Source: Mucilaginibacter gossypii (lineage in GTDB: Bacteria > Bacteroidota > Bacteroidia > Sphingobacteriales > Sphingobacteriaceae). Taken from it: DNA of 64,000 bases. The notes under the pieces were generated by a model that had not been told where the DNA came from, did no database searches, and worked only from the letters and a program-made list of their open reading frames with translations. The number at the start of each line of letters is the position of its first letter. Positions within the stretch are counted from its first letter, which is position 1. This document shows positions 10,531 through 53,841 of the stretch, piece after piece. Location: contig NZ_FNCG01000007.1 of NCBI RefSeq assembly GCF_900100945.1, positions 166,091 to 230,090 on the forward strand, written 5' to 3'. Position numbers and translations under genes: made by a program.

Positions 10531-10579
10531 ATTTGATGTATTATCTTATTGAAATGTGTTTAAACCTACTCCCTTTTTA

Positions 10580-13500: not shown

Positions 13501-14446
13501 AGTAACGGCAGGCACAACAGGCACTCTTGCGGCAACCCCTGTTTATATACGACTTTCGGCAACAACACCCGTAGGTAATTACACCGGCGCCATATTAGTT
13601 AGTGCGGATAATACGGCCAGCAAAACTATTGCCACGGCAAATAATAATACGGTAAGCCCTGCTCCGTTAAGCATCACCGCCAATAACGTTCAAAAAACAT
13701 ATGGCGAAACATTATTAAACGTTGCAGTATCTCCCTCATTTACATCAACAGGGTTGCAAAATGGCGAAGTTATTGGCAGTATAACATTAACCTACGGTAC
13801 CGGTGCCCAATCTTCCGCGGCTGTTGGTATGTATCCGCTTTCGGTAGTGCCCTCAGCTCCGGCGGGCGGCACATTCAACATTGATAATTATACACTTAGT
13901 TTTATTAAGGGAAGCATTAATATTAACCAGGCCCCATTAACAATAACAGCTAATAACCAAAAGAAATATTATGGTGATGAAAACCCCGCTTTAACAGTAT
14001 CCTATAGCGGTTTCGTAAATATGGAAACAGCCTCGGTTTTATCGCCGCAGCCACTGGTTACTACTGACGCCATAGCAAACTCAATCCCTGGCCAATATCC
14101 TATATTAGTTTACAATGCGGGTAGCACAAACTACGCGATAACATATGTATCCGGTACACTTACCATTGAGCCTGTGAACCAGCTTTTAATTATACCAAAT
14201 ACCTTTACACCCAATGGAGACGGCATCAATGATGTCTGGAAAATTAAAAATATAGAGGATTACCCAAAATGTGTAGTGACCATATATAACAGATACGGTG
14301 AACAACTCCTTGCCTCAAATGGCTACGGTATAGCATGGGACGGCAAATATAAGGGGAAAGACGCCCCTGCAGCAACCTATTATTACCTGATTGATATAAA
14401 GAACGGCGGCAAACCCTTATCGGGTTGGGTTACCATTATAAGATAG
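10580..14446 (+). CDS. T9SS-secreted YVTN beta-propeller protein with MBG and type B sorting domain
   Basis: I choose ATG 10580 because the signal peptide starts there (MQRLLYVVLLITFFFSFLVQ); a GTG at 10556 would only add eight residues. Two modules follow. Each has a PKD-like segment (YIWKNNNPSIGLSATGAGNI; FTWVNDHPEIGLAVNGEGDI), then a seven-blade YVTN propeller (VSPDGSKVYVANA and similar), then the closing piece C..PV.F.ITVKPT. After each module comes an Ig-like segment (APAGFEVSLSQGSGYSNTLS). Two MBG-type repeats start near 13660 and 13930 (ITANNVQKTYGE; ITANNQKKYYGD). The last ~85 residues form a gliding-motility-type T9SS sorting domain (TFTPNGDGINDVWKI, IYNRYGE). It is an exported or surface-attached protein, probably an adhesin. 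Confidence 0.9.
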   Translation: MQRLLYVVLLITFFFSFLVQTAAQSNQTVTNGDLTTPAVFPGIGCSYIWKNNNPSIGLSATGAGNIQAFEAINTGNTPVTATITATPTAAGIAYILSNIGQLTLIDLASNQIISNSPTTYHPFGEAISPDGKIIYITDPDDGSVISVNAATFDVLGYTPTGPNSYPRAIAVSPDGSKVYVANAYIYNDYGTVNIIDTKTHNIITTTNVGSNPSGLVLSPDGSKLYVANHNSTFISVLNAITGSTIGQISMTVSTANLAIAHDGSELYATTDASFTNGTAITVINTATNQVTKTIIIGYSPASIAVSPDDKKLYVTNEDINTVSVIDNQTKTIVANILLPGGSYPISINLSPDGTKAYAVNQNGLISVINTANNTVINSIQTVTGALSYGKFISAGSGCSSSPVTFNITVKPTAATPLINAGPVSGTILACAGSASTSPHIQQFIVRGSNLTAAVAVTAPAGFEVSLSQGSGYSNTLSINPSGGGLSKTIYVRSAESSNVGGISGNVKLKSAGTSDQQVAVAGIVNALPTVNTVPNQVKANGTQSDPVTLTGSGNTFTWVNDHPEIGLAVNGEGDIAAFTTTNNTASAIVAKITATPLNSPYAYITNSASSSVSVINVATHKVIKTIVMGTDPQDITVSHDGKKVYVSDPISNTVSVIDVATNTVSATISVPAGSFSMAVSPDNSKLYLVAINPNLGNNDVYVINTATNHIISTLHVGVSIGMIALSPNGDTLYATDNGQNNLLVMNASNGQLQKTIPVGAMPASVIVSNDGTTAYVCNSGANTISIINTATNTVVKTVTVGTAPFALALSPDGSILYATGYSDGSLTAINTSSNTLRFQVNAGQYPMGVSVTPDGESVYVANSNSGTITVISALTGDKLETIPVGLNPFSIGSFITPVNSCPGQPVSFTITVKPTTVSANIKVSGNIDPLATIYGTSSATSGFIVSATNLTSGIQITPPSGFEVSTNGVNFSQTVTAGTTGTLAATPVYIRLSATTPVGNYTGAILVSADNTASKTIATANNNTVSPAPLSITANNVQKTYGETLLNVAVSPSFTSTGLQNGEVIGSITLTYGTGAQSSAAVGMYPLSVVPSAPAGGTFNIDNYTLSFIKGSININQAPLTITANNQKKYYGDENPALTVSYSGFVNMETASVLSPQPLVTTDAIANSIPGQYPILVYNAGSTNYAITYVSGTLTIEPVNQLLIIPNTFTPNGDGINDVWKIKNIEDYPKCVVTIYNRYGEQLLASNGYGIAWDGKYKGKDAPAATYYYLIDIKNGGKPLSGWVTIIR

Positions 14447-14737
14447 AGAGTGCCCCCACTCCGTCAATTTTAAAGCAATAAATACGGGGGTATACCTGGG
14501 CATGTTTAGCTACCGGCAAACCTCTTGAAAAAACGTTTGGAATATATTGGTCATATGATGTTCCTCCAATATTTAATAACCCCAATTTAACATTCACATA
14601 TTATATTTATAACCCACAAAATACTCTATATCAAATAAAATCTATATATTCATGAACAATTTGCAGGGCCTGGTTCTCCCCGGATCTGACCTTCGCAATT
14701 AAATTTAACCTTTCACAATTTGAAATACCCGGTCTGC

Positions 14738-17700
14738 ATGTCTAACATCTTTTTTGTAAAGCATTTTAAATTTATTTGCGCTATTGTAATCATTTTTAAA
14801 AGTAGCAGCTTATTTGCCCAGGCCCCTGTTATATCTTCGTTTATGCCTGTAAGCGGCGCGCCAGGAACAACAGTAACCATAAACGGATCTAATTTTAGTA
14901 GTAACCCCACGGATAACATTATTTTTTTTGGAGATACAAGAAGCACTGTAAATTCTGCTACAGCTAATCAACTTTCCATAACTGTGCCTGTTGGAGCCGT
15001 GAGCAGCCAGATTTCTGTTACAGCAAAAGGGTTGATGTCATATTCCCGAAACGCATTCCATGTAACTTTTGATGGGGCAGGCGTACTGGCGCCTACCGCT
15101 TTCGAAAAAGAAATAGACGCGCCCCTACCGAGCTATAGTGGCATGCTAAGATCAAAAGACATTGACGGAGACGGCAAAACCGACCTGGTATTTTCAAATC
15201 CCAGTAACAAGGCGATATCAATTTACCGTAACGTCAACACCCATGTGGGATCGATCTCTGCTTCCACTCTGGCTCCAAAAGCCGATATTAATATCGGCAA
15301 CGAAGCCATCTATATTGCAGTTGAAGACCTTAATGGAGACGGCAAACCAGATGTTGTAGGTTATAACAGCCAGGAGGCAAATTTAAATGTGCTGAGGAAT
15401 ACCAGTACGCCAGGAAATATTTCTTATGCCGCGGCTGTTAATATTACGGGAGCTAAAGGCATGGTGGCACTTACCACAGCTGATATTAACAGCGACGGCA
15501 AACCCGATATCATATTCCTTAACCCCAATGGCAGAGTTTTTTCAATTTTAATTAATAAAAGCACCGCGTCGGATATCGCGTTCGCGCCAAAGGCCGATTT
15601 CAGCACAGGTGGCAACCCCAATACTTTTACTATTGCCGATTTTGATGGCGATGGCAAAATAGATGTCGCGATAAGTAACCGGCTCATCAATGATAACTCT
15701 CCGGTTATATCCTTATTTCAAAACACCGGAAACAGTACGACAGTATCGTTCGGACCGCAAATAAATTATTCGACAACTACTTCTTCATATACATTGGCTG
15801 CCGGCGACATGGATGGCGATGGAAAGGTGGATATAGTGTTTCCAAACTACGGTAATTTGGCGGTATTGCAAAACACTTCGGTACCCGGATCAATGAAATT
15901 TAATTTTTGGGATTTTACAGACCCAACAGGTTCTCAACCTACAGGTATTTTAAGTGACGTGGATGGCGATGGCAAACCAGATGTGATTGAAAGTACAGGT
16001 TACATTACACATATAGTAAAAAACACCAGCACGCCCGGTTCATTTTCTTTTGCACCTGCCGCCGCTTTTAATACAAATACACCCTCTCTTTTCAGCGATC
16101 TTGATGGCGACGGTAAACCCGATCTGATATTGGCGAGTTATACATCAGGCCCAACTCTCGGTATACTCCGCAATAAAATAAACGAGCCAGCAGTTAATCT
16201 CATTTCGCCGGAAATTGGCCTCTCCGGCACACCGGTAAATATAACCGGCCTAAATTTAACCAAAGCGTTGGCAGTTACTATTGGAGGAGTAAACGCGGCG
16301 TCGTTTACGGTCAACTCACCTACCAGCATCACGGCGATAGTAGGCTCAGGAGCTACCGGTCCTGTAGTTGTGATAACAAAATATGGCACAGGCAAAGGTG
16401 CCGATTTTGTGTACAGCGTACCGGCACCAGTGATAAACTCGTTTACCCCTTTATCTGGCCCTGTAGGTACAACTGTTACCATATCGGGCAAAAACTTTAA
16501 TGCTATTGCCGCTAACAATATTGTATTTTTTGGTGTGGCCAAGGCTACTGTTACCTCAGCAACAGCCACACAACTGGTGGTAAAGGTGCCGGTCGGTGCA
16601 AATCATCAGCCAATCACAGTTGCTACAAACGGTTTGATGGCAGCCTCATCTAAAATATTTGATGTAACATTTACCGCGTCAGGCCCCTTTGCGCCCAACT
16701 CATTTAATAAAAGAATAGATATACCTGTGCCTGACTACCCGTCAGACGTTTTAATAGGTGATATCGACGGCGACGGTAAAACTGATATTATTGCTTTTAA
16801 CAGCAGTACATTTTCTTTTTTCAGAAATACAAGTTCAGTTGGTAATACATCATTTAGTACTAATAAGGACGTTACACCGTCAGGGAATATTGACAGGGCC
16901 ATTATTTCTGATATCGATGCCGATGGAAAGCCCGACCTGATCTATGTAAGCGTAACCGGTAAAAAGGTGGTAATTTTAAAAAACACCAGCATACCCGGAA
17001 CATTTTCCTTTGCAACTCCTATAACTATCGCCGACGGCGCGGCTCCAAACGGCGTCACAGCTGCCGATTTTGATAATGACGGCAAAACAGACATTGCTGT
17101 TTCGCATGCTGCAAACAATACATTTTCAGTTTTACGCAACACAACAGCAAACGGTAATATTGCTTTTGCCCCCGCCGTAGTTATTACATCTCTTAAGCCC
17201 GACTACCTGGGTGGCGTTTTCCCTGGTGATTTGGACGGCGACGGTAAAATCGACATAATAGCAATATCCGAAATCTCTCAAAATCAATTCAATTTAACTT
17301 TCAAAAACACAAGTACTATAGGTCATATTTCTTTCACTCCTGTAAATGCCTACCAAAACGGCTATCATCCAACAAACGTAATTATTGCAGATATTGATGG
17401 GGATGATAAACCTGATATGACAGTGCCTGCCGGTTATAGCACTTATTTGGTTTATAAGAACACAACATCATCAGGAGGGAAAATTGATTTTGCCAATGCT
17501 GTGGGTTATGAGGCTGGATTATATCCTAAGGGCTTGTCTATAGGTGACCTCAATGGCGACGGTAAACCAGACCTGGTTGCGCCCGATGGGAAATTCCCTG
17601 GTTCTATTGGTGTATTTAAAAACCTATCTACAGTTGGCACCATCCAACTTGCAGCAAAAGTTGATTACACTAAAGGCTCTTCTAATTCCAATATCTCCGG

Positions 17701-20700
17701 AACAGGATTTGGAGGCTCTGCAGTTGCAGATTTTGATGGCGATGGTCGTTTGGACATGGTCGTATCTACCTTTTATGGCAACACTATTTCTGTGTCAACA
17801 AATACCATCAATGCACCTGCAATAAGTTCGTTTACGCCGGCGTCTGCTACAAGGGGCAGCACCATTACTATTACAGGTACTAATTTAAATGGCACAACGA
17901 AAGTTACCTTTGGCGGTGTTGATGCATCATCATTCACCATTAAATCGGCGACAAGCATAACAGCAATAGTGGGCGATGGCGCAACTGGCGACGTTGCAAT
18001 AACAACCCCAGTCGCTACAGGCAAGTTGTCAGGTTTTACATTTCTCCCAGGCCCAACGCTTAAATCATTTAGCCCGCTTACCGCCGGGCCGGGTAAAACA
18101 GTGACTTTAACCGGCACTCATTTCGCAGGTGCCACGGCGGTAACTTTTGGCGGCATAAATGCCAGGTCATTTACGGTTATTTCAGATGAAAAGATAACCG
18201 CCGTGGTAAATAATACAGCTGCATCGGGTATTATTTCCGTAACGGTACCTGGCGGAAAGGCCTCCTTAGATGGCTATGTTTTTACGCTTAATCCTATTGT
18301 TAGCGCCTTTTCACCCGCCTATGGCGCAATCGATACTTCGGTTGTTATAGCAGGTAATAATTTCAATGCCGGAGTTGCAGGAAATATTGTTTATTTCGGT
18401 GCAACGAAAGCTGTAGTTACCGCGGCTACAACACAGCAACTATCTGTTAAAGTACCGGTTGGCGCTACCTACCAGTCCATATCGGTTTTAAATACATCGT
18501 CCGGTTTAACGGGCTTTTCGGTAATCCCATTTGTTGGTACCTTTAAAACCAAGTATAGTATAGCCGCAGCCGATTTTGACCCTAAGGTCGATTTCGCGCT
18601 ATCAAATGGCGCTAAGGCATCGGCCATAAGTGATATTGACGGCGATAAAAAACCGGATGTTATTGTTGTTAATTCGCTCGCCAATACAGTTTCAATTTTC
18701 AGAAATACAGCTGTGAACGGCAGTATTACATCAAACTCGTTAGCTTCCAAATTTGAACTGACCACTAAAAATACCCCGCAGGCTATAACAGTTACAGATA
18801 TTGACGGCGACGGTTTAAAAGATATAGCAGTAACCGCCCTGGGAGATAACAGCGTATCGGTTTTTCTCAATAAATCAGCAGGCGGCAATATTTCTTTTGC
18901 GGCTCCGGTAATTTTAGCTTCGGGTGCAAGCCCATACGGCATAGCGGCAGATGACCTGGACGGCGATGGTAAAACAGATCTGATTGCTACAAATCCAGCG
19001 GCCAACACCGTTTCAGTTTTTAAAAACCTAAGTACACCTGGTAAGATATTATTTGCTTTAAAAGTAGATATCGCGACCGGGAATACCCCACATGGAATAG
19101 CCACTGCTGATATTAATGGCGACGGCCTCCCAGAGATATTAACAGCCAACTTTAGTGATGCTACATTTTCGGTTTTGCAAAACCAATCAATCGCAGGTAT
19201 TATTGATGCAGCGTCATTTGCCGGTCACACAGAAACAACCGCCATTAATGGCGCCGAATCAATAGCGGTAGGTGATATTGATCAGAATGGCACGCCTGAT
19301 GTTGTTATTGCAGGCACTCAAAGCAACGCCGTTTCGGTGTTCAGGAACTCGTTGCAAGATCAACGGCCCACCTTCCTCGAACAACTTATTTTAAATACAG
19401 ATGAGGGGCCAGCGTCTGTAGCCATTGCTGATTTGGATGGAGATAGCAGGCCGGATATCATTACTGCCAATTCAACATCCAATACCTTATCTGTTTTCCG
19501 CAACATCATGCCTTTAGGGGGCGTGCCTGCGGCTATTTTCGCGCCAAAAATTATCATTGCGGCTCCCAATAACCCATCGTTTGTGAGCATCGGCGATTTG
19601 GATGGCGATGGCAAACCGGATATTATATCTGTAAAAACTCAAAACAATACGCTATCGATATTACGTAGCCATCCTGCCCAATCAACGGTTGTGCCGCCAC
19701 CTGTAATTTCGTCAATCACTCCCGGCAAGGGCGCAATTGGCACATCTGTTACCGTTAAGGGCAATAATTTTAATACATCTGCCGATGCCAATACAGTATT
19801 TTTAGGGGCTACGCAGGCAAAAGTCAACACAGCAACCGCCACGCAATTAAATATCACTGTGCCGGTAAGCGCAACTTACCAGCCTTTATCTGTGTTAAAT
19901 ACGGCTAACCATTTAACCGGTTATTCTAAAACTCCTTTTATTACCACGTTCGAGTCAAAAAAGAGTGTATCGGAAGCTGATTTAAGCTCGGCTGTAAATT
20001 TCCCAACCAATGCTTCACCTTATGGTGTGAGTGTTGGCGATATCGACGGTGATGGTAAGCCTGACCTTGTTATCAGTAATCCTGACAGGCATTCTATTTC
20101 GATATTTCGTAATACCTCGGTGAATGGTACAATAACAACATCGTCATTTGCCGCGAAAGTTGATTTCACTATTAACGGGGAGCCGCAAAAGGTTATTGTA
20201 ACTGATATTGATGGCGACGGAAAACCAGATGTAATTGTTAGCGGTTATTACGCTCCTAAAAGCTTTGTTTCAATTTTACGAAATACTGCTGTTAAAGGCG
20301 CTATCAACGCTTCATCATTTGCTGCGGGTGTAGACTTCACGGTTCCCGATGCTTCAAAAATGCAGGTAACCGATATAGATGTAGATGGTAAACCAGATAT
20401 TGCATTAGGAGACCTGACCATCCTGCTTAATCATTGTAAACAGGGCGGGATCAACGCCGACTCCTTTCCTGAACAGGCACTTTATTCATTGGGTTCGGCC
20501 AGCTATGCGTATGCATTTTATGATATCAATAACGATGGAAAACCAGATGTAATATTCAACGATAATTACAGCCATATTGCTATTGCCTTGAACAAATCGG
20601 TTCCCGGTAATCTTTCATTGGGCTCCCCTATCAAGCTAAAAAACTCGCTAAGTGGCGTCTCCTTACAGATAGCCGATATCGACGGCGATGGTAAAGCAGA

Positions 20701-23700
20701 TATCATGGCCATCGATTATGACCTCAACGCGGTGTATTTTCACCGCAATATTTCTGTGGGCAATAATATTAATGAAAATTCATTTGAAGATTATATTAAG
20801 TTTCCGGCAAACCAGAAAGCCTTTAATGCCGGTGGAAGCTCCGAATATCTGCAGGTTGCTGATATAGATGGCGATGGCAAACCCGATCTGCTCAACATAA
20901 GCAGCGGGTTAAAGGTATTTTCTCTTTTCCATAACATATCGACAGCAAATACACCATCTTATACTTATTTCGATACTAAATTTGATGTCAAAGCCGGCAA
21001 CAACGTTAGCGGCATTGCCGCAGTCGATATTGATGGTGATGGCAAACCCGACATTGTAACTGTAAACCGGGACGATGATACATTTTCAATATTCAGAAAT
21101 AATCCAACTCCCGCTGTTGTTTTAACGCCTCCAGTTGTCACGTCGGTTTCGCCAGCATCAGGTCCGGCGGGTACAATTGTAACCATAAAAGGTAAAAATT
21201 TTAACGGTGCGGCCGCTGGGAATATCGTAGCCTTCGGATCAGCAACTGCTGTAGTAAAATCAGCCACAGCAGAAAGCATTTCGGTGAGTGTTCCTGTCAG
21301 CGCTACATATGAATCGCCATCGGTTTTAAATACAGCCAATGGCCTTACCGGTTATTGGTCAGATAAATTTATCAGCACCTACCCACCCAAAAAGGATGAC
21401 ATAACGGAGCAGGATTTTGAATTGCCTGTAAGTGTTTATGGATACATGGCCGAGTATGTGCGCGTAGGCGACCTTGATGGTGACGGCAAACCCGACCTGA
21501 TAATTCACGATGGCTATCAAACGATTTCTGTACTTAGAAACCAGTCGGCTATCGGCCCAATTAATCCCGCCGCGTTTGGAGCTGTTGGTACTCTATCCAG
21601 TTACCGGTTTACCGTGGGTACCGATCCTCAAATCATAAAAGTGGCTGATATAGATGGTGATGGTAAACCCGATCTGTTAGTAAGCTATTACAGTTTTTAT
21701 GGCGTTGGCATATCTGTATTGTTAAACCGTTCAACGCCAGGCAATATAAATTTCGCCCCAAAAGTTGATATTGCTTATTATTCCACTCCGTTTGGCGCAA
21801 ATACTTATGTGGTAGAAACCGGAGATGTTGACAGCGATGGCAGACCCGAAATTTTAATCGCAAATTCATCTTTAAATGGTATTTCGGTATTGCCAAACAC
21901 CAGTAAGAAAGGCACAGTATCATTTGTTTCGCGATTTGATTTTGAGGCTGGCACACAGCCATCTGGTTTAAATCTTACTGATATTGATGGTGATGGTAAA
22001 CCCGACCTTGTAATTAGCAATAAAATGGATAACACAGTTTCTGTGTTGCGTAACATCACGGCTCCCGGTATTATCAATGCGGCTTCGTTTGAAAAACATG
22101 TTGATTATGCAACCGTTGCTTCGCCTACCAGCGTCATTACCGGTGATTTGAACGCTGATGGCAAAGCAGATATCATAGTTGTATCGAGCGAGCCTGTGCC
22201 TGGGATATCCATACTGCAAAATAAAAGTACTACCGGCGTTATTAATGCCGGCTCGGTGGGCGCCAAGGTTGATATAACCTCATTATTATCTGCAAGGGGC
22301 ATTGCCATAGCTGATATTGACGGCGATGCTAAACCCGACCTGGTTACAGGGCATACAGTGATCCGTAATATAAAGGGCAATGGCAATATTTCCCGCGCCT
22401 CCTTTGCAGCCAATGAAGTACCTGTAATGAAGATAAATAAGTTTTTTAAGGCATTTAGTGTTGAAGATATTGACGGTGATGGCATCCCGGACATCGTAGG
22501 GGTCGACGGTGGAGATCTCTCCATAGTCCGTAACAATCCTCTGGCCATAGGGCAGCCATATATATCATCCTTTAGTCCAGAATATGCCATAAAAGGCACT
22601 ACCGTTACACTTACCGGTAAAAACTTTGACAAGGTATCTTCCGTTACGTTTGGCGGTACACCGGCAGCTTCATTTAAAATTGCTTCGCCAACTACCATTA
22701 CAGCTGTTGTGGCAACAGGTGCATCTGGTAATGTGGCAGTAACCGCCCCTGCCGGCTCATCAATGAGGCCTGGATTTAACTTTGTACCGGCGCCAATCAT
22801 AACAGCCAATGGGCCAACCAAAATTTTTGCTGGCACCGGCGTTCAGTTAACCGTAAATCAGAGCTCTGGCAATTATTACCAATGGTTGCGCGATGGAGTT
22901 AAAATCGACGGCGCCACATCAATTAATTACACCGCTACGCAAAGTGGATCATATATGGTTATTGTAACAGTAAATAATATCAGCCAAACATCTGCTGCAA
23001 TCAGTATTACAGACTCGCCCGACTTGCCTGCCGACAACTTTAAATTGGCCATAACCAGTGTTTCATGTAAAGGCTCAACAAACGGGGCAATTAATATTAC
23101 GGCCCTTCAAAACCTAAATTATATCGCTACCATTACAGGTAACGGTGTAAATAACCAATATACTTTCAGGCATGATGTAACGATCAGTAACCTAACAGCC
23201 GGCACCTATTCTGTTTGTATTTCAATAGCCGGCCAGTCCAATTACAAACAGTGCTTTACAGCTGTAGTGAACCAACCGCAAGATCTTTCGGTGTACTCGA
23301 CCATAAATAATGAAAACAAAACAGTTACGCTTGCCATGACCGGCGGCGAGGAGTATCATATTTTACTTAACGGAACCAGCTACTCAACAAAAAACAGGAA
23401 TATAACGTTGGCGCTAACAGATGGTAATAACGATTTAACGGTTACCACCGATAAACTGTGTCAGGGCGTACTACAAAGAATAATTAATTTTTCGGATAAG
23501 ATCATACCATATCCTAACCCATTCCAAAATACTTTGCACCTGAATATTGGCAATGCGATATTCAAAAATGTTTCGGTGGAAATTTATGACATCGGTAACG
23601 GCAGAAAAGTATATGCTAAGCAATTTGGCGATCAATCGGGTAAGATTAGTTTAAACCTTACCGACCTTAGTTCCGGGCTTTATGGGCTGCGTTTAAATAT

Positions 23701-23740
23701 GGGTAATTCGGTAAAAATTTTTAAGATAGAAAAAAAATGA
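14738..23740 (+). CDS. Giant FG-GAP/VCBS and IPT repeat surface protein, type A T9SS domain
   Basis: The start is ATG 14738 (MSNIFFVKHFKFICAIVIIF, a signal peptide); TTG 14720 is an unlikely alternative. About 3000 residues contain 35 calcium-binding loops of the DIDGDGKPDL type, grouped 7+7+7+7+7 at about 15.16-16.15, 16.75-17.78, 18.63-19.64, 20.03-21.08 and 21.46-22.52 kb. The groups are separated by nine IPT/TIG-like domains of two subtypes (NIVFFG...VPV and VTFGG...AIV). After the last IPT come an Ig-like domain (NYYQWLRDGVKIDG), an SprB-like segment (SVSCKGSTNGAINI) and a type A sorting domain (IIPYPNPFQNTLHLNIG, ending KIFKIEKK). It is probably secreted through T9SS to the cell surface as a long calcium-dependent adhesin. 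A lipoprotein gene overlaps its stop by four bases. Confidence 0.92.
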   Translation: MSNIFFVKHFKFICAIVIIFKSSSLFAQAPVISSFMPVSGAPGTTVTINGSNFSSNPTDNIIFFGDTRSTVNSATANQLSITVPVGAVSSQISVTAKGLMSYSRNAFHVTFDGAGVLAPTAFEKEIDAPLPSYSGMLRSKDIDGDGKTDLVFSNPSNKAISIYRNVNTHVGSISASTLAPKADINIGNEAIYIAVEDLNGDGKPDVVGYNSQEANLNVLRNTSTPGNISYAAAVNITGAKGMVALTTADINSDGKPDIIFLNPNGRVFSILINKSTASDIAFAPKADFSTGGNPNTFTIADFDGDGKIDVAISNRLINDNSPVISLFQNTGNSTTVSFGPQINYSTTTSSYTLAAGDMDGDGKVDIVFPNYGNLAVLQNTSVPGSMKFNFWDFTDPTGSQPTGILSDVDGDGKPDVIESTGYITHIVKNTSTPGSFSFAPAAAFNTNTPSLFSDLDGDGKPDLILASYTSGPTLGILRNKINEPAVNLISPEIGLSGTPVNITGLNLTKALAVTIGGVNAASFTVNSPTSITAIVGSGATGPVVVITKYGTGKGADFVYSVPAPVINSFTPLSGPVGTTVTISGKNFNAIAANNIVFFGVAKATVTSATATQLVVKVPVGANHQPITVATNGLMAASSKIFDVTFTASGPFAPNSFNKRIDIPVPDYPSDVLIGDIDGDGKTDIIAFNSSTFSFFRNTSSVGNTSFSTNKDVTPSGNIDRAIISDIDADGKPDLIYVSVTGKKVVILKNTSIPGTFSFATPITIADGAAPNGVTAADFDNDGKTDIAVSHAANNTFSVLRNTTANGNIAFAPAVVITSLKPDYLGGVFPGDLDGDGKIDIIAISEISQNQFNLTFKNTSTIGHISFTPVNAYQNGYHPTNVIIADIDGDDKPDMTVPAGYSTYLVYKNTTSSGGKIDFANAVGYEAGLYPKGLSIGDLNGDGKPDLVAPDGKFPGSIGVFKNLSTVGTIQLAAKVDYTKGSSNSNISGTGFGGSAVADFDGDGRLDMVVSTFYGNTISVSTNTINAPAISSFTPASATRGSTITITGTNLNGTTKVTFGGVDASSFTIKSATSITAIVGDGATGDVAITTPVATGKLSGFTFLPGPTLKSFSPLTAGPGKTVTLTGTHFAGATAVTFGGINARSFTVISDEKITAVVNNTAASGIISVTVPGGKASLDGYVFTLNPIVSAFSPAYGAIDTSVVIAGNNFNAGVAGNIVYFGATKAVVTAATTQQLSVKVPVGATYQSISVLNTSSGLTGFSVIPFVGTFKTKYSIAAADFDPKVDFALSNGAKASAISDIDGDKKPDVIVVNSLANTVSIFRNTAVNGSITSNSLASKFELTTKNTPQAITVTDIDGDGLKDIAVTALGDNSVSVFLNKSAGGNISFAAPVILASGASPYGIAADDLDGDGKTDLIATNPAANTVSVFKNLSTPGKILFALKVDIATGNTPHGIATADINGDGLPEILTANFSDATFSVLQNQSIAGIIDAASFAGHTETTAINGAESIAVGDIDQNGTPDVVIAGTQSNAVSVFRNSLQDQRPTFLEQLILNTDEGPASVAIADLDGDSRPDIITANSTSNTLSVFRNIMPLGGVPAAIFAPKIIIAAPNNPSFVSIGDLDGDGKPDIISVKTQNNTLSILRSHPAQSTVVPPPVISSITPGKGAIGTSVTVKGNNFNTSADANTVFLGATQAKVNTATATQLNITVPVSATYQPLSVLNTANHLTGYSKTPFITTFESKKSVSEADLSSAVNFPTNASPYGVSVGDIDGDGKPDLVISNPDRHSISIFRNTSVNGTITTSSFAAKVDFTINGEPQKVIVTDIDGDGKPDVIVSGYYAPKSFVSILRNTAVKGAINASSFAAGVDFTVPDASKMQVTDIDVDGKPDIALGDLTILLNHCKQGGINADSFPEQALYSLGSASYAYAFYDINNDGKPDVIFNDNYSHIAIALNKSVPGNLSLGSPIKLKNSLSGVSLQIADIDGDGKADIMAIDYDLNAVYFHRNISVGNNINENSFEDYIKFPANQKAFNAGGSSEYLQVADIDGDGKPDLLNISSGLKVFSLFHNISTANTPSYTYFDTKFDVKAGNNVSGIAAVDIDGDGKPDIVTVNRDDDTFSIFRNNPTPAVVLTPPVVTSVSPASGPAGTIVTIKGKNFNGAAAGNIVAFGSATAVVKSATAESISVSVPVSATYESPSVLNTANGLTGYWSDKFISTYPPKKDDITEQDFELPVSVYGYMAEYVRVGDLDGDGKPDLIIHDGYQTISVLRNQSAIGPINPAAFGAVGTLSSYRFTVGTDPQIIKVADIDGDGKPDLLVSYYSFYGVGISVLLNRSTPGNINFAPKVDIAYYSTPFGANTYVVETGDVDSDGRPEILIANSSLNGISVLPNTSKKGTVSFVSRFDFEAGTQPSGLNLTDIDGDGKPDLVISNKMDNTVSVLRNITAPGIINAASFEKHVDYATVASPTSVITGDLNADGKADIIVVSSEPVPGISILQNKSTTGVINAGSVGAKVDITSLLSARGIAIADIDGDAKPDLVTGHTVIRNIKGNGNISRASFAANEVPVMKINKFFKAFSVEDIDGDGIPDIVGVDGGDLSIVRNNPLAIGQPYISSFSPEYAIKGTTVTLTGKNFDKVSSVTFGGTPAASFKIASPTTITAVVATGASGNVAVTAPAGSSMRPGFNFVPAPIITANGPTKIFAGTGVQLTVNQSSGNYYQWLRDGVKIDGATSINYTATQSGSYMVIVTVNNISQTSAAISITDSPDLPADNFKLAITSVSCKGSTNGAINITALQNLNYIATITGNGVNNQYTFRHDVTISNLTAGTYSVCISIAGQSNYKQCFTAVVNQPQDLSVYSTINNENKTVTLAMTGGEEYHILLNGTSYSTKNRNITLALTDGNNDLTVTTDKLCQGVLQRIINFSDKIIPYPNPFQNTLHLNIGNAIFKNVSVEIYDIGNGRKVYAKQFGDQSGKISLNLTDLSSGLYGLRLNMGNSVKIFKIEKK

Positions 23741-36784: not shown

Positions 36785-39700
36785 TCATTCATTTCGCAGG
36801 CTGTCGACAGGGTTGGCCAACGCAGCCCTAATAGATTGAAAGCTGATCGTAATCAACGCAATCGAAATCGCCGCGAACGCGGCTGCCGCGACCAGATACC
36901 ACTGGATAGTAGTACGATAAGCAAAACCCTGCAACCATTTTTGCATCGCCCACCAGGCCAGCGGCGTTGCAATAAATAATGCTATCACAACTAATTTCAA
37001 AAAATCTACAGACAACATACCTGTTATCTTCGATACGCTGGCACCCAGAACCTTACGGATACCTATTTCTTTGGTGCGTTGTTCCGCAGCGTAAGCTGCA
37101 AGGCCGAAAAGTCCCAGGCACGCTATTAAAATAGCCAGCGTACTGAAACACAAGAAAATTGTTCCCGCACGCTGCTCCGCACGATAAGTTGAATCAAAAT
37201 CGGCATCCATGAACGAGTAGGTAAACTGCTCGTTTGGTGAAAAGTGCTTCCATCTCTTTTCAATTAAAGCAAGCACGTTTGAAATCTCCCTGCCGCGCAA
37301 CCTCACATTGATAGCGCCATTATCGGGAGCATAATATAATGCTAAAGGCATAACTTCCTCGTGTAGTGAGGCATAATGAAAATCTTTAACAACGCCAACT
37401 ATATGATAAGGCTGGATTCCATATGAATCCCGGTACAACGTTTTATTCAAAGGATCTTTTGCGCCATACTTGCGTACAAATGCTTCATTTACGATCATGC
37501 CCGCACTATCTGTAGGCATATCTTTTGAAAAATTACGACCCGAGGCGAGCGTCAACCTCATGGTATGTATGTAGTCTTCATCTACCGGCCAAAATTCAGT
37601 CAGAATAACCTGTTTGATATCAATAAGCCGGGACGGGAAAAGACCGGTTCTCAACCGCAGGTCGCCGGTAGGCTGAAAAGCGCTCATACTCACATTTTCA
37701 ACCTCAGGAATCTGCTTCAATTCATTTTTGAATAAAGCAGCGCTGTTGCCCAGTACATCGCTGTTCTTAATAACTAGGACGTGGCTGCGATCAAAACCGA
37801 GGCTTTTGTTACGGATGAATTGGAGCTGATTAAAGATAACCAAAGTACTAATGATCAGGAAAATAGATATAGAAAACTGGAATACCACTAAAAAACTTCT
37901 CAGAAAACTGCCCTTAAAACCATTAGCAATCTTGCCCTTCAACACATCGATAGGTTGGAAAGCGGAAAGAAAAAAGGCAGGATATGCACCCGCTAAAAAT
38001 CCAACCACCAGGGCAATCAATAGTAATGTGGGAACCAGCCATACTAATTGTCCCCAATGCAGTGCCAGTTGTTTTGCCGCCAGTTGATTAAACATTGGCA
38101 ACAGCAACCAGGCTATTAATGCACCCATAAAAGCAGAAGCCACTGTCACTAGCATAGACTCAGTAAGGAATTGCACGATAATAAATTTTCGTGACGACCC
38201 CAGCACTTTTCTTACGCCTACTTCTTTAGTCCGGTTAGCCGACCGGGCGGTACTTAAATTCATAAAATTTACGCAAGCTATGAGCAGGATAAATATGGCG
38301 ATCACCGAAAATATATAAACATATTGAATATTGCTGCCCGCTTCCAGCTGATATTTTGCTTGATCGCGGAGGTGAATATCCGTTATGGGCATCAATACAG
38401 TTCTGAAATAATTGTCACCGCTGCTCCAGGCAGCCGGATTAAACGAATTTTTGATTTCGACAGCAGCGATCTCTTTTTCCAGCCGGTGTACATTAGCACG
38501 AGGTTTGAGCAATAAATAATTATGCATGCCGCCATAACCCCAGCCGTGTTGAGCACTTTCCGCACGCGAACTGTATGACAGGAAAAAATCATAGTGAAAA
38601 TGCGACTGCTCAGGAATATCTTTAATAACACCGGTGATTTTGTAGGCGCTGGTATCGTTGATGGTCAGCGTCTGCCCTACAACTGTTGTACGATTAAAAT
38701 ATTTTCTCGCCGTGCTTTCAGTTATTACGGCGCTGTGGGGGGCATCTAGCGCATTGGCGGGGCTCCCTTCAATCATCGGCAGGGTGAAAACCTTAAAAAG
38801 TGAAGATTCAGTAAACACAATCTTCTTTTCCTGTATATTCTCATTCCCTTTACGAATGTAAAATTTCGAGGGCGATAGAAACAGCCCGCCAACATCAATC
38901 ATGCGGGTCATTTGCTCAATTTCAGGAAACATGCCCTTAATGGTCGCAGGCAGGGGTTCTTCAGAAGTGGCGTACTGGTTCGCATTACCATTTAATTTAA
39001 CATCAAGCCCTATTCGGTATATACGGTCTGCGTGTTCGTTGTATTTATCATACCCGAGTTCATGAGTTACGTAAAAAACGATCAGTAAAAAGGTGGCCAG
39101 GCCCGCCGAAAGTCCGAAGATATTAAGAAGGGTGAAACCTATGTTTTTTTGCAGGCTGCGATAAGCGGTTTTCAAATAATTTCGGATCATGCTCTTGCGT
39201 TTGGGGCGTTGAGCTACCCGTACCCAGGTGCTTTCCCGAGGCAAGATTACTGGCTTATCAGCCGCCGGAAGTGTCAACTTATCATTTGACACTTCTTTTT
39301 TTAGCTTACGCTTATGTTCGGCCGGAGTTTGACCAGTTAATTCCTTAAAAAACCGGTTGAAAGTCGATTTAGAATTAAATCCCGAATCATATGCAATACC
39401 CAGCAAATTATAACGCTCGTAATCCGGATGGTGTAATTTCCTGATTACAGCCTGTATCCGCAACTCGTTGATAAAATCATTGAAGTTCTTTTTAAAAGAC
39501 TGATTAATAATACGCGACAATTCGTGCGGATGAATATCCAGCTTCTCTGCCAAAGTAGTTAATGATAGTTCAGCATCTTCATATAATCGATCGGCCGCTA
39601 CCACTTTTTTTAGCCACCTGCCCCTATCCCGTAAATTCTGGGGCACGGAAGTCGGCAAGGATTGTTCAGGTCTTGTATCCGATGCTGAAATGTTGCTAAA

Positions 39701-40222
39701 TCCAATCCAGATCAGTACCACAAGGATCCCAAGGACAATCAGGTCATTGAGCCAATATACAGCAGTCAGTAACAGGAGCACTTTGAGTATGCTGTCCAAT
39801 CGCCGGTATCTCATGAGCTGCCTGTCCATCAACACGGCTTGTTGACTCCGTTGCGCATCTCGGATTAACTGATGTGACAGGCACAAGTAGCCGGCCATAC
39901 TCAGCAGTACGATCCAGCCTGGAACTACCGGTAATAAAACCAGCGGGCCGAAATGCCACAGGTTACCGCGCTGAAATGTTCGCCCCGGATGGATTAATTG
40001 CAAAAAGTAAAAATAAAGTAAAGGTCCCCAGGCCAGCATTACAGATAACGGCAAGCCCGCAGCATGCAATAGCGTTACACTCAAAACCAAACTCAAATAC
40101 CGGTTGGCACTGCTGTTAATCCGTTTGCCGGACCATAAAAGCATAGCCACGGTAAACCCGGTAAAAATCATTCCGAGGAGAAAAAGCTCTAAGCTTTGAA
40201 TATGAAAGATGTTTGAATGCAA
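36785..40222 (-). CDS. Membrane AraC regulator fused to MacB/FtsX-type permease
   Basis: One 1145-residue chain. Residues 1-180 carry about five or six membrane segments. Residues ~205-310 are an AraC-type double helix-turn-helix (LSLTTLAEKLDIHPHELSRI; LLGIAYDSGFNSKSTFNRFF). A basic linker leads to Met345 (codon at 39190), where a complete two-half FtsX-type permease begins (MIRNYLKTAYRSLQKNIGFT). It has a periplasmic MacB-like domain, the cytoplasmic NRTKEVGVRKVLGSS and QRTKEIGIRKVLGASV loops, and ends VDSLRNE. No ATPase gene is adjacent. The architecture suggests transcription control coupled to permease state; the function is unknown. A sister protein lies at 50215-53841. Confidence 0.85.
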   Translation of the reverse strand: MHSNIFHIQSLELFLLGMIFTGFTVAMLLWSGKRINSSANRYLSLVLSVTLLHAAGLPLSVMLAWGPLLYFYFLQLIHPGRTFQRGNLWHFGPLVLLPVVPGWIVLLSMAGYLCLSHQLIRDAQRSQQAVLMDRQLMRYRRLDSILKVLLLLTAVYWLNDLIVLGILVVLIWIGFSNISASDTRPEQSLPTSVPQNLRDRGRWLKKVVAADRLYEDAELSLTTLAEKLDIHPHELSRIINQSFKKNFNDFINELRIQAVIRKLHHPDYERYNLLGIAYDSGFNSKSTFNRFFKELTGQTPAEHKRKLKKEVSNDKLTLPAADKPVILPRESTWVRVAQRPKRKSMIRNYLKTAYRSLQKNIGFTLLNIFGLSAGLATFLLIVFYVTHELGYDKYNEHADRIYRIGLDVKLNGNANQYATSEEPLPATIKGMFPEIEQMTRMIDVGGLFLSPSKFYIRKGNENIQEKKIVFTESSLFKVFTLPMIEGSPANALDAPHSAVITESTARKYFNRTTVVGQTLTINDTSAYKITGVIKDIPEQSHFHYDFFLSYSSRAESAQHGWGYGGMHNYLLLKPRANVHRLEKEIAAVEIKNSFNPAAWSSGDNYFRTVLMPITDIHLRDQAKYQLEAGSNIQYVYIFSVIAIFILLIACVNFMNLSTARSANRTKEVGVRKVLGSSRKFIIVQFLTESMLVTVASAFMGALIAWLLLPMFNQLAAKQLALHWGQLVWLVPTLLLIALVVGFLAGAYPAFFLSAFQPIDVLKGKIANGFKGSFLRSFLVVFQFSISIFLIISTLVIFNQLQFIRNKSLGFDRSHVLVIKNSDVLGNSAALFKNELKQIPEVENVSMSAFQPTGDLRLRTGLFPSRLIDIKQVILTEFWPVDEDYIHTMRLTLASGRNFSKDMPTDSAGMIVNEAFVRKYGAKDPLNKTLYRDSYGIQPYHIVGVVKDFHYASLHEEVMPLALYYAPDNGAINVRLRGREISNVLALIEKRWKHFSPNEQFTYSFMDADFDSTYRAEQRAGTIFLCFSTLAILIACLGLFGLAAYAAEQRTKEIGIRKVLGASVSKITGMLSVDFLKLVVIALFIATPLAWWAMQKWLQGFAYRTTIQWYLVAAAAFAAISIALITISFQSIRAALANPVDSLRNE

Positions 40223-40558
40223 TAAAGTCCTGGTTTCAACTTTCGTTCCAAAACAATAAAAAATTAAAAATCAAACAATTAAATACAAACCCATTAAGTT
40301 TCTGTATCAGTTCCGAACAATAACTCGTTCGTTTTTGAGCAAAAAAAAAACAACGACATAACTACGCTTCCAACCAGAGATAGCTACCCAAAAATCAGAT
40401 AACTATACTAATGCCATCAACCGCCCAATGCCCTGTATTTAGCGCCGGTTAAATATGGCTGCAAAAAAACCGGTGATCAGTTTTGTGATACTTAAAAAAG
40501 TGAATAATGGCGATAGCAGGAACATAGGGTTTTCGTCGTTGCGCAAACTTGCATAAAA

Positions 40559-49724: not shown

Positions 49725-50214
49725 CCGTTCGTAATGCTCAACCTGCGTAAAAGTAATCCTGAGGCTATTTGTCAATGCTTTCACTTCCCCTTATGTTCAG
49801 CGAAAAGCGAGGCAGTACCGTTCTTCGTATTTCGCCCTTTGTTTTTCCCCTCACCAGCCTACTTTTTTCTTGCCTTCCAAAGCATCGCAAATTTTGCCGC
49901 TTCTATCTCGTAAGCCTTTTATAAAAGGCTACGGCATAATAAAGCATTCTGCTTTACCCTTGGGAACTTAAGCCGTTGAAGCCGTCCCTGCGCCGACCAA
50001 AAAAGGGCCACTTTCTGGTTATTTTGCTGCGCTCAATTAGAAAAGATGCATAACGCTGGTTGAACTGGTGAACACCGATGATCTATTTAAAGAGCTGAAC
50101 ACTTACGTAATAGTTCAATCCCAATTGAATTCAGAAGTTGCCGGAATCGAACACCAATCGTCCGTTTTCGTTACAACCTGCTTTTGCTACCTTGTCATAA
50201 ATAATTAATTTTCA
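49725..50214. other. Intergenic stretch with palindromes
   Basis: No gene found. A perfect 18-bp palindrome lies at 49913-49930 (AGCCTTTTATAAAAGGCT), and a hairpin AAAGCA-TTC-TGCTTT about 10 bp later. These may end transcripts from either side. Bases 50080-50214 are the upstream region of the second fusion gene. Confidence 0.45.
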
Positions 50215-53200
50215 ATGATATTCACCCATGGAATGCGTATTGTTGCAAACTTTTTATTGGAAAACTTTACAATAAAGATCGGCATTACTGAGGTAGCTTA
50301 CCTGGGAGCGATCTATAGCAGCCTGGGTATGGCTGCACTTCTGGTTGTTGATAAAAGAAGCCCGAGGAAGAATGGCTGGCCATTAGCATTGGCCCTGGTC
50401 TTGATGCAATTTTCCCTTGTGCGCATCGTGGCTATAAAAGGCAGGTTCCCTGTTGATCTGCCAGACAGCCTCCTGGGTTTAGGCCCCCTGATCTACTTTC
50501 AAGTATTGAAGAAATGCCGGCCACTTGAAAAGCTTACATCAATGCACACATGGCATTTCCTTCCCTTGCTCATCACTTTAGGCATTCCGTTATGCTATCC
50601 CGCGAAAGCGACATGGCTAAGCGCGTTCTCCCCGGTTTCAGTCCTGCTTTACCTGTTAGCGGCTCATCGGGAAATAGTGGCCATGTACCATAGCCGAACC
50701 TTTATCGAGGGTGACCGTAACAGGAACGAAATGGAATGGCTTCGCCGGCCTTTAATAGTGTTAGGCGCAGTCTGGCTGCTCTTGTTAATTTTAGGGACCG
50801 GACACTATGTAATAATCAAAAATCCGGTACTATCCGCTATTGAACACTTCTTGTACCTGCTGTCAGCCATGTTGTTGATCTGGCTCGCCTTCCGGACTTT
50901 TATTCGGACACAAGGAAATTTGGATGTACCAGGAACCTCAGCTATAAAGCTTAACTTGAATGCTGATCTGAGACGTAAGGGTGGCCAATTGAAAGCAGCT
51001 TTGAAGCTGGAACACTACTACCGGGACCCGGAACTGGACCTCCGGTCGCTGGCTGAAAAAATGGATGTTCATCCTAATGAACTTTCCAGGATCATTAACG
51101 CGGTATTCAAAAAGAGTTTCAATGAGTTGATCAATGAATACCGGATCAATGACGTTATGCGAAAAATGCAGGACAGAAATTATGACCACCTGACCTTGCT
51201 CGGCATTGCTTATGAATCTGGTTTTAACTCTAAATCCACTTTCAACCGGGCATTCCGGGAAATGACAGGACAAAGTCCCGCAGAATATAAAAACGAATTA
51301 AAAAATAAGCGCCCAACTTATAACCTGGGACGAACAGGACACTTCGCTGTCCGACCTTCGGGTCATAAAACAGCCACGATTCAGGCTGAACTGGAATTAA
51401 AGCGAAAACTCATGTTGAAAAATAATTTAAAAATCGCCTGGCGTAATTTAAAGCGAAACAAGATCTACACGACGATCAACATTACCGGATTATCCGTTGG
51501 TATTGCAGCCTGCCTGCTGATATTCCTGGTCATTAAATATGAAACGAGCTTTGACGATTACCACCAAAAGCGTGACCGGATCAACCGGGTGGTCACGATC
51601 AGCAACGGGCCTGGCGGGGTGCATGCCGGCGTTGGCACACCGTTGCCGATAACCGAAGCTTTGAAACTCGATTTCCCGCAACTGGAGCAGGTGGCCAATA
51701 TCATGCAAAATTCTAATTCGCACTACACCGTGGATGACCTGCAACATACCGGCGTTGCCCGAAAGTTCAGGGAGCCGCTGGCTTATTACGCCGATCCGGA
51801 ATTCTTCGGCGTGTTCGATTTCAAGTGGCTGGCGGGTGATCGAAACACCGCGCTTTCGGCGCCAAATACCATTGTGCTGTCCCGCCAGGAGGCGAATAAA
51901 TTTTTCGGCGATTGGCGGACTGCCATGGGCAAAACGGTGAAGTTCGAAAATGCGCGCGACCTGCAAGTCACCGGGATATTTGATGATACACCGGTCAACA
52001 CTGACATCCCGATGAAATTAGCCGTTTCATGGGCGACATTAACGGTGGCTGGGGGAGAACTTTATGATAGCCAGCAAGACTGGGTCAGTACCTTTGGGGC
52101 GAAGAACTGTTATGTGGTTTTGCCACCCGGTTTAACGGCCGAACGGTTTAATCAAGACCTGCTTGCTTTTGCAAAGCGCCACTTGCCCGCAACGCCGCAA
52201 AAAGGTGAAAGCTACCAATTGCAGCCATTAAGCGATATACACTACAATACCGACACGACCGTTTACAGCGGACATCCTTTCAGCAGGCAGCTGATCAATG
52301 TGATCGGCCTGATCGGATGCTTTCTGTTGCTGATCGGCTGTGTTAATTTTATCAATCTGGCTACCGCGCAGGCGGTCAACCGTTCAAAAGAAGTGGGGGT
52401 GCGAAAGGTAATGGGCAGCAGCCGGCTGCAACTCGTTCTGCAATATATGAGTGAGACTTTGATCATTACCACCCTGGCGGTATCGTTGGCCGTCGTGATG
52501 GCGGTACTGGCTGTGCCGATGTTCAATAACTTGCTGGATACTGAATTACGCCGTTCTTTTCTAAATGATCCTGCTATCATCATGTTTTTGTTGGGCGTCA
52601 TTGCCGCCGTTACGCTGGTCGCCGGGCTTTATCCGGCCTTTGTACTTTCCGGTTTCAATCCCGTCGCAGCAATGCGTAACCAGGTGACCGCCGGCAGGGC
52701 CAGCGGTATGTCGCTCCGCAGGGTATTGGTACTTGCACAATTTTGCATCGCTCAGTTTTTGGTGATCGGAACACTGGTCCTGCTGCGTCAAATGGACTAT
52801 TTTCAAAACAAACCGCTGGGGTTCAATAAAGACGCAGTGATCACTGTCCCGGTTCCTGCAGACAGTTTGAGCCGATTGAAATTAAACAGCCTGAAGAATG
52901 AGCTGCTCACGCAATCCGGCATCAAAAATGTCAGCCTGAGTTTGTTCGGGCCATCTGATAAGAGCGGTTGGGCTACGGATATCAAGTACGACAACGCTGC
53001 CAAACCGGCAAATTTCGCGGTTAACTTAAAATGGGCAGACCGGGAGTATTTCAAATTATACGAAATGCAATTTGTTGCCGGCGGGCCATATCCGCAAGGC
53101 GATGTGGTAAAAGGCTACGTGGTCAATGAAGCGCTGGTTCGGCAACTCGGCATCTCCGATCCGAAACTGGTCATTGGCAAATATATTATGCTTTGGGACC

Positions 53201-53841
53201 GCAAGGATCTCTACGCCCCGATCACCGGCGTTGTTAAAGACTACCATATCAAATCTTTGCAAAATGCCATCCCACCGGTTTTGATGGGCGCTTCTTTGAA
53301 TCAGTACGCAAAACTTAACGTCAAGATCGATCTGCAGCATGTTGATCAAACGCTTTCAACTATTGAACGGCTATGGAACAAAACTTATCCTGCTGGAGTC
53401 TATGAGTATCAGTTCCTGGACCAGACCATCGCCAATTTTTATAAAAAGGAAAATGCGCTTGCGGTGCTGTATGAGATCTTCGCATCGGTTGCCATTTTTA
53501 TATCTTGCCTTGGCCTCTATGGTTTGGTTTCGTTCATGGCGGTACAACGAATCAAGGAAGTCGGCATCCGTAAAACACTGGGCGCTTCGGTGATCAATAT
53601 CGTCTTTTTGTTTTATAAAGAATTCACAGTGCTCATTCTAATTGCCTTTGCCGTCGCTGCGCCGATCGGCTATTACTGCATGGAAAAATGGCTGCAGGAT
53701 TATACCTACCGCATTCAGATAGGACCCGGCGTATTTGTGATAGCCATCGCCAGCTCCGTTTTTATTGCCTGGGTTACTGTCGGCTCAAAGGCGATCAAGG
53801 CGGCGTTGACCAATCCGGTAAAGAGCCTAAAGAGCGAATAA
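50215..53841 (+). CDS. Second membrane AraC regulator fused to MacB/FtsX-type permease
   Basis: The 1208-residue chain has the same order as 36785-40222: about six or seven membrane helices to residue 230, an AraC double helix-turn-helix at ~260-365 (LDLRSLAEKMDVHPNELSRI; LLGIAYESGFNSKSTFNRAF), a linker, and from Met400 (codon at 51412) a complete FtsX-type permease (MLKNNLKIAWRNLKRNKIYT). The two permease loops are NRSKEVGVRKVMGSSRLQLV and QRIKEVGIRKTLGASVINIV. There is no ATPase gene nearby. The AraC parts are close (about two-thirds identical by eye) but the permease parts differ more, so this is not a recent duplicate. Confidence 0.85.
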   Translation: MIFTHGMRIVANFLLENFTIKIGITEVAYLGAIYSSLGMAALLVVDKRSPRKNGWPLALALVLMQFSLVRIVAIKGRFPVDLPDSLLGLGPLIYFQVLKKCRPLEKLTSMHTWHFLPLLITLGIPLCYPAKATWLSAFSPVSVLLYLLAAHREIVAMYHSRTFIEGDRNRNEMEWLRRPLIVLGAVWLLLLILGTGHYVIIKNPVLSAIEHFLYLLSAMLLIWLAFRTFIRTQGNLDVPGTSAIKLNLNADLRRKGGQLKAALKLEHYYRDPELDLRSLAEKMDVHPNELSRIINAVFKKSFNELINEYRINDVMRKMQDRNYDHLTLLGIAYESGFNSKSTFNRAFREMTGQSPAEYKNELKNKRPTYNLGRTGHFAVRPSGHKTATIQAELELKRKLMLKNNLKIAWRNLKRNKIYTTINITGLSVGIAACLLIFLVIKYETSFDDYHQKRDRINRVVTISNGPGGVHAGVGTPLPITEALKLDFPQLEQVANIMQNSNSHYTVDDLQHTGVARKFREPLAYYADPEFFGVFDFKWLAGDRNTALSAPNTIVLSRQEANKFFGDWRTAMGKTVKFENARDLQVTGIFDDTPVNTDIPMKLAVSWATLTVAGGELYDSQQDWVSTFGAKNCYVVLPPGLTAERFNQDLLAFAKRHLPATPQKGESYQLQPLSDIHYNTDTTVYSGHPFSRQLINVIGLIGCFLLLIGCVNFINLATAQAVNRSKEVGVRKVMGSSRLQLVLQYMSETLIITTLAVSLAVVMAVLAVPMFNNLLDTELRRSFLNDPAIIMFLLGVIAAVTLVAGLYPAFVLSGFNPVAAMRNQVTAGRASGMSLRRVLVLAQFCIAQFLVIGTLVLLRQMDYFQNKPLGFNKDAVITVPVPADSLSRLKLNSLKNELLTQSGIKNVSLSLFGPSDKSGWATDIKYDNAAKPANFAVNLKWADREYFKLYEMQFVAGGPYPQGDVVKGYVVNEALVRQLGISDPKLVIGKYIMLWDRKDLYAPITGVVKDYHIKSLQNAIPPVLMGASLNQYAKLNVKIDLQHVDQTLSTIERLWNKTYPAGVYEYQFLDQTIANFYKKENALAVLYEIFASVAIFISCLGLYGLVSFMAVQRIKEVGIRKTLGASVINIVFLFYKEFTVLILIAFAVAAPIGYYCMEKWLQDYTYRIQIGPGVFVIAIASSVFIAWVTVGSKAIKAALTNPVKSLKSE

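Follow-up and report, generated by a model that had tools for sequence, protein, structure and literature searches.

The stretch of Mucilaginibacter gossypii DNA analyzed here (64,000 nucleotides, the window) contains, at 36785–40222 on the minus strand, one open frame of 1145 amino acids with a TTG start, in which an AraC-type transcription factor is followed by an FtsX-type permease. Comparison of this gene with its relatives establishes, at the level of sequence, the architecture of the fusion, its recurrence and maintenance, the exchange of its front end, and a common predicted sigma54-type promoter with a putative upstream operator. From the joint evidence we tentatively read the product, with a confidence just short of even, as a single membrane protein, namely a duplicated type VII (YbbP/MacB-like) permease whose cytoplasmic N-terminus carries a seven-helix AraC-type transcription factor, the gene being sigma54-controlled and the permease acting as the signaling input. 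Both halves belong to known families; what is new is their union, the exchange between permeases, and the promoter. We found the fusion described nowhere in the open literature searched, subscription papers lying mostly outside its scope.

In the proposed mechanism, an NtrC-like activator would switch on the fusion gene together with plain FtsX permeases. The permease, driven either by an ATPase whose gene lies elsewhere or simply by the binding of a ligand, would change shape on engaging an envelope substrate, and this movement would reach the HTH on the same chain and alter the transcription of target genes. The coupling of the HTH to the permease that the earlier note suggested, with cell-envelope stress as a possible signal, is likewise hypothetical. 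The diverse permeases would then be interchangeable sensors feeding one conserved DNA-binding output, and a sensor–output scheme of this kind agrees with the finding that the output is conserved while the permeases vary and are exchangeable. Type VII permeases such as BceB take part in signaling via separate kinases. A permease with its own DNA-binding domain would, if true, be a one-protein transporter-sensor, and would hint at the role of some Bacteroidota FtsX permeases that have no neighboring ATPase.

Architecture and occurrence of the fusion

The earlier note, made from the DNA letters, had described one frame with N-terminal membrane helices, a full AraC double HTH, and a two-half permease, and the open reading frame, the Pfam matches, and the AF2 model all confirm this description. 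The N-terminal membrane module (aa 10–179; 39686–40195, minus strand) has seven helices in the AF2 model, at aa 10–31, 37–54, 59–77, 85–96, 102–126, 133–156, and 162–179, and is also apparent in the hydropathy profile of the relatives. The AraC double HTH (aa 224–305; 39308–39553, minus strand) covers positions 1–79 of the 80 of the Pfam model HTH_18, with 57 bits against a cut-off of 33.6 (2e-15), and its Foldseek matches are AraC-type domains, e.g., 3oou, AraT, and YesN. Two HTH motifs are present, and the signature residues of the AraC/XylS type are invariant across the fusions. The permease (aa 345–1145; 36785–39190, minus strand) contains MacB_PCD in two stretches (1.2e-31) and FtsX in two stretches (1.1e-25).

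The AF2 model, calculated from an alignment of 68 proteins (the window protein and relatives), has a mean pLDDT of 81.9 and places the AraC domain at 197–307 and the permease from 342 onward, with the linker in between (308–343) below a pLDDT of 50 and hence predicted to be disordered. The solved fold nearest to the permease is YbbP of E. coli (9ge6, E 2.5e-15, Foldseek), followed by MacB, LolCDE, and BceAB. With its MacB_PCD and FtsX halves and a YbbP/MacB fold, the permease is assigned by Pfam, AF2, and Foldseek to the type VII ABC permeases. The earlier note had also placed the HTH between two membrane units. This placement holds, except that the first unit is better seen as the seven-helix membrane module of an AraC regulator, which makes the protein read as a complete membrane regulator before a complete permease. 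The sequence comparison supports the suggestion that one chain unites a membrane-tethered transcription factor with an FtsX permease. The modeled anatomy fits that of a membrane-tethered one-component regulator, ToxR/CadC-like in principle, in which an extracytoplasmic input and a cytoplasmic DNA-binding output would share one chain. The front end resembles the membrane AraC/XylS regulators of Bacteroidota in its multi-helix membrane part and C-terminal HTH_18. Stand-alone genes of this type, which encode some 370–400 amino acids (e.g., L038, 10301–11413), are numerous in the family genome sample; unlike them, the fusion continues with a linker and a complete permease in one chain.

A second AraC-FtsX fusion lies in the window at 50215–53841 of the plus strand (1208 aa as called), and the M. 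gossypii genome has six in total; its plain FtsX permeases, each of about 800 amino acids, number about 30. The fusion is present in 12 of the 101 genomes sampled from the bacterial family, where the scores separate clearly (fusions at least 167 bits, non-fusions at most 97), and in only 4 of 395 genomes of a phylum-wide sample, one of the four being a partial frame. A junction search of named genomes returned 77 loci, all with single-frame fusions, which is not a frequency because such a search favors fusions; together with the M. gossypii genome this gives 108 distinct fusion ORFs, with a junction identity of at least 41% across species. The loci are from Mucilaginibacter, Hufsiella, Parapedobacter, Chitinophaga rupis, Puia, Spirosoma panaciterrae, and metagenome-assembled genomes (MAGs), mostly from Mucilaginibacter and relatives, and include a complete genome, that of Mucilaginibacter sp. 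SMC90 (L069 and L089). The survey proposed in the earlier note finds the fusion recurrent in Mucilaginibacter and its relatives rather than unique to the strain, and the sequence comparison supports that it is under selection. None of the viral contigs searched carries it, and a scan of the genome for the junction DNA, with up to two mismatches allowed, hits four of the six fusions and no other site. Clustering of the neighbors around the 77 loci yields no gene family that recurs beyond 8–9 loci and no conserved operon partner.

The permease, its ATPase, and the exchange of its regulator

FtsX permeases usually work with a separate ATPase, and the statement of the earlier note that none is nearby holds. 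A PF00005 profile search of the genome finds no ABC ATPase on contig C16 (275 kb), and no partner ABC ATPase is found at the 77 loci, where the only ATPases near the fusions are, by sequence reading, MlaF-like or ABC-F. The partner ATPase gene adjacent to the permease in type VII systems is thus absent. The coupling-helix residues of the permease are nevertheless intact: R664, E667, G669, R671, K672, and G675, and in the repeat R1049, K1051, E1052, G1054, R1056, K1057, and G1060, are kept in 94–100% of the fusions. These motifs are cytoplasmic, after TM2 and its repeat, and are retained in plain permeases as well. In the type VII fold, such cytoplasmic coupling motifs contact the ATPase. An array of plain permeases on contig C27, in contrast, is bordered by ATPase genes at either end and includes, at the start, an HlyD-type adaptor. 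Conserved coupling motifs, the lack of a nearby ATPase gene, and the flanking ATPase genes of the C27 array together suggest that the fusion permease is probably energized in trans, rather than being ATPase-free.

The fusion shares with YbbP/YbbAP, MacB, LolCDE, and BceAB a duplicated FtsX-type permease, two periplasmic MacB-like domains, and coupling helices, and differs from these systems in having a DNA-binding regulator at the N-terminus and no ATPase gene nearby. Mechanotransmission has been described for YbbAP (PMC12646458). In MacB, the N-terminal position that the regulator has in the fusion is taken by the protein's own ATPase (PMC5985334). The BceAB-BceRS modules likewise use an FtsX-type permease as a sensor for gene regulation (PMC5985334); there, however, the signal from the permease goes to a histidine kinase that is a separate protein, whereas the fusion has the DNA-binding domain on the permease chain, and the neighbor clustering at the 77 loci finds no conserved kinase beside it. 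A further likeness is to the ADOP duplicated permeases (TIGR03434), which also lack a neighboring ATPase and to whose model the fusion aligns over nearly its whole length. The score of 324.5 bits is below the curated cut-off of 622.3, which leaves the fusion outside this family, and the fusion has the added regulator. It is worth mentioning here that two other FtsX permeases (L015, 4801–7575; L048, 192–2924) have an extra N-terminal region of about 100 amino acids with no Pfam match. By eye, that of L015 resembles the FecR/anti-sigma type, and it may be another regulator–permease fusion.

The two halves of the fusion have separate histories. Over 96 near-complete fusions, one gene entering twice via overlapping loci, the mean pairwise identity is 54% for the front end and 36% for the permease. 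The identities of the two parts correlate by only 0.14, and their nearest neighbors agree in 25 of the 96. Discordant pairs occur in both directions, one with 80% identity in the front end and 33% in the permease, another with 45% and 89%, respectively, and the change in identity falls on the permease's first Met or, in one pair, inside the linker. Fusions and plain permeases are intermingled in the tree of the permeases, with 24 label changes, at least 20 of which are forced by well supported branches, and a single clade of fusions is rejected in a 30-protein mixture-model tree (AU p 8e-54). The sequences thus show that the front end has repeatedly been exchanged at the first codon of the permease; they demonstrate the exchange itself, though not each of its directions.

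The geometry of the junction is uniform, the distance from the HTH motif to the permease Met being 98 amino acids in nearly all of the first members measured, and that from the end of the HTH 49 amino acids in 72 of 81 fusions. This uniform linker length suggests a single origin of the front end, followed either by its spread through recombination across the conserved beginning of the permease gene or by repeated losses. It is possible, if somewhat doubtful, that the fusions form a recombining permease–regulator family. Recombination at the initial codon of diverse FtsX permeases would then swap a single conserved membrane AraC front end among them and connect various envelope sensors to a common DNA-binding output, and the linker would hold a second nucleic-acid element (an internal start or an antisense transcript). 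A fixed regulator exchanged at one exact codon provides natural experiments on the coupling of transport and transcription, fused permeases being comparable with their plain sisters, and the repeated swapping of the regulator end in soil and water Bacteroidota suggests a reusable wiring of cell-envelope events to gene control.

The linker and the internal ATG

The module swapping, the sigma54-type promoter, and the nucleotide-level constraint on the linker were not foreseen in the earlier note, and the last of these may leave room for separate products. The linker (aa 308–344, 37 residues; 39191–39301, minus strand), although disordered in the model, is constrained at synonymous sites: of 437 codon columns scored, those with the strongest synonymous conservation are mostly at codons 308–342, with AAA used in 103/103, GTA in 64/64, TTA in 77/80, and CGC in 88/95 sequences. 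It contains, at its 5′ side, an inverted repeat, GAAGTGTCAA-8-TTGACACTTC (39268–39295, no strand assigned), adjoined by a run of seven A (39296–39302), and the arms of the repeat covary across 83 sequences (0 of 500 shuffles). Immediately after the linker comes the internal ATG of Met345 (39188–39190, minus strand), which conservation and breakpoints identify as the first codon of the ancestral permease and the breakpoint of the swaps. This residue is Met in 107 of 107 fusions and is the sole invariant Met, the next best column reaching 95%. The invariant Met345 and the nucleotide-level constraint suggest that the gene may not act only as one chain.

Internal initiation that also yields a separate permease is, indeed, a serious rival to the reading of a single signaling chain. 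In such a dual-product gene, translation from the internal ATG would yield a permease of about 800 amino acids, in addition to the fusion or in its place, the linker DNA would carry the signals (a start region, a hairpin, or an antisense transcript), and the regulator and the permease would be co-expressed partners. Besides the features just described, a natural split copy (L080, 10096–11265 and 11331–12717) speaks for it, where the regulator frame ends by a frameshift in the linker and the permease frame starts at the internal ATG. A two-gene arrangement would, however, be expected to break the frame often, whereas 107 ORFs keep it open across the linker; frequent swaps at the internal ATG could keep resetting the Met; and the stability of the hairpin beyond that of synonymous shuffles is modest (z about −0.5). 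On balance we consider the dual-product gene rather unlikely.

Neither RNAalifold nor Rfam detects a structured RNA in the linker. The wobble pairs of the repeat are biased toward the antisense strand (103 vs 33). Together with the hairpin, after which the opposite strand has a run of T, this bias points toward a possible antisense terminator. We have also considered a programmed frameshift at the AAAAAAG run, which is unsupported because the stem begins directly after the run.

Promoter, operator, and further alternatives

Upstream of the fusion gene is a predicted sigma54-type −24/−12 element, TTGGAAC-N5-TTGA (40236–40251, minus strand), recognized by a pattern match across the fusions. In its strict form the pattern occurs in 41 of 103 fusions, compared to 0 of 36 plain permeases and 0 of 261 control upstream regions, and its most conserved columns are GG and TTG, at sigma54 spacing. 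A reading as the Bacteroidota −7 box (TAnnTTTG) was dropped, since the T-A columns of that box are unconserved, whereas GG and TTG are conserved. The family start is a TTG in 87 of 96 fusions. In the window gene (40222) and its relatives this TTG lies only some 2–3 nucleotides past the predicted transcription start, from which an almost leaderless translation would follow.

Further upstream, the fusions have a long inverted repeat as a putative operator, with the consensus TTCAAAACCGAACGGCC-N-TGTTCGGTTTTGTTACAA, of which the window gene has a weak copy, CAAAAACGAACG...TGTTCGGAACTGATACA (40303–40337, minus strand). At a score of more than 12 bits, the operator is recognized in 70 of 103 fusions, in contrast to 7 of 261 control upstream regions; of the seven, six belong to divergent genes with an intergenic region in common with a fusion, and one to the HlyD gene of the C27 array. 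The spacing to the −24 element is 46–49 nucleotides (about 47). We attribute the 10–12 bp steps in the operator position relative to the called start to differences in start calling, because the distance to the −24 element is fixed. For the second fusion, sequence comparison locates an operator half, CGTCCGTTTTCGTTACA (50159–50175, plus strand), and sequence reading a predicted sigma54-type element, TGGAAT-GCGTA-TTGT (50229–50244, plus strand), with the geometry of the other fusions. This promoter geometry places the start of the gene more likely at the TTG at 50257 than at the called position.

Operators related to those of the fusions also precede the plain FtsX permeases of the C27 array, beside an NtrC-like activator gene. 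The exact core TGTNCGNTNNYRNTACA occurs four times in the genome, three of them in this array, to be compared with three occurrences of the reversed control pattern. Genes for NtrC-like activators adjoin plain permease loci on contigs C27, C28, and C19, and the genome has one RpoN gene. The C27 operators, the NtrC-like genes beside plain permeases, and the one RpoN argue that the operator is more likely the site at which an activator acts on a sigma54 regulon of permeases than one for autoregulation by AraC, and it may be bound by the activator, by the AraC domain, or by both.

The swap point has both the operator and the front end on its upstream side, and the operator is conserved in most fusions, as would be expected if the front end were an expression-control cassette. 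As an autoregulator it would bind the inverted repeat before its own gene and set only the dose of whichever permease it carries, with no signaling by the permease. This is improbable, in our view, because the −24/−12 element predicts an NtrC-type activator, the related C27 operators precede permeases that have no AraC part, and autoregulation does not need the fusion of two chains. An assembly error, which the earlier note had named as a finding that would overturn its proposal, or a non-functional read-through fusion of two neighboring genes can be dismissed with near certainty in view of the many independent copies (the second one in the window, six in the genome, and the 108 ORFs with their conserved junction, including those of a complete genome), even if single copies do decay, a Spirosoma plasmid relative (41.9% identity) having one in-frame stop in the permease, of a kind not found in the window copy.

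Two other regions deserve mention. The array on contig C27 (126000–176000, L114–L116; the array itself spans 128–174 kb) comprises nearly 20 plain FtsX permeases in tandem, with the HlyD adaptor, the ABC ATPase genes at both ends, the NtrC-like activator gene at one side, and sigma54-like promoters, and is possibly a large envelope permease regulon. In the window, a frame of 3006 amino acids (14720–23740) lies beside the gene for a protein with a type IX secretion signal (10556–14446).
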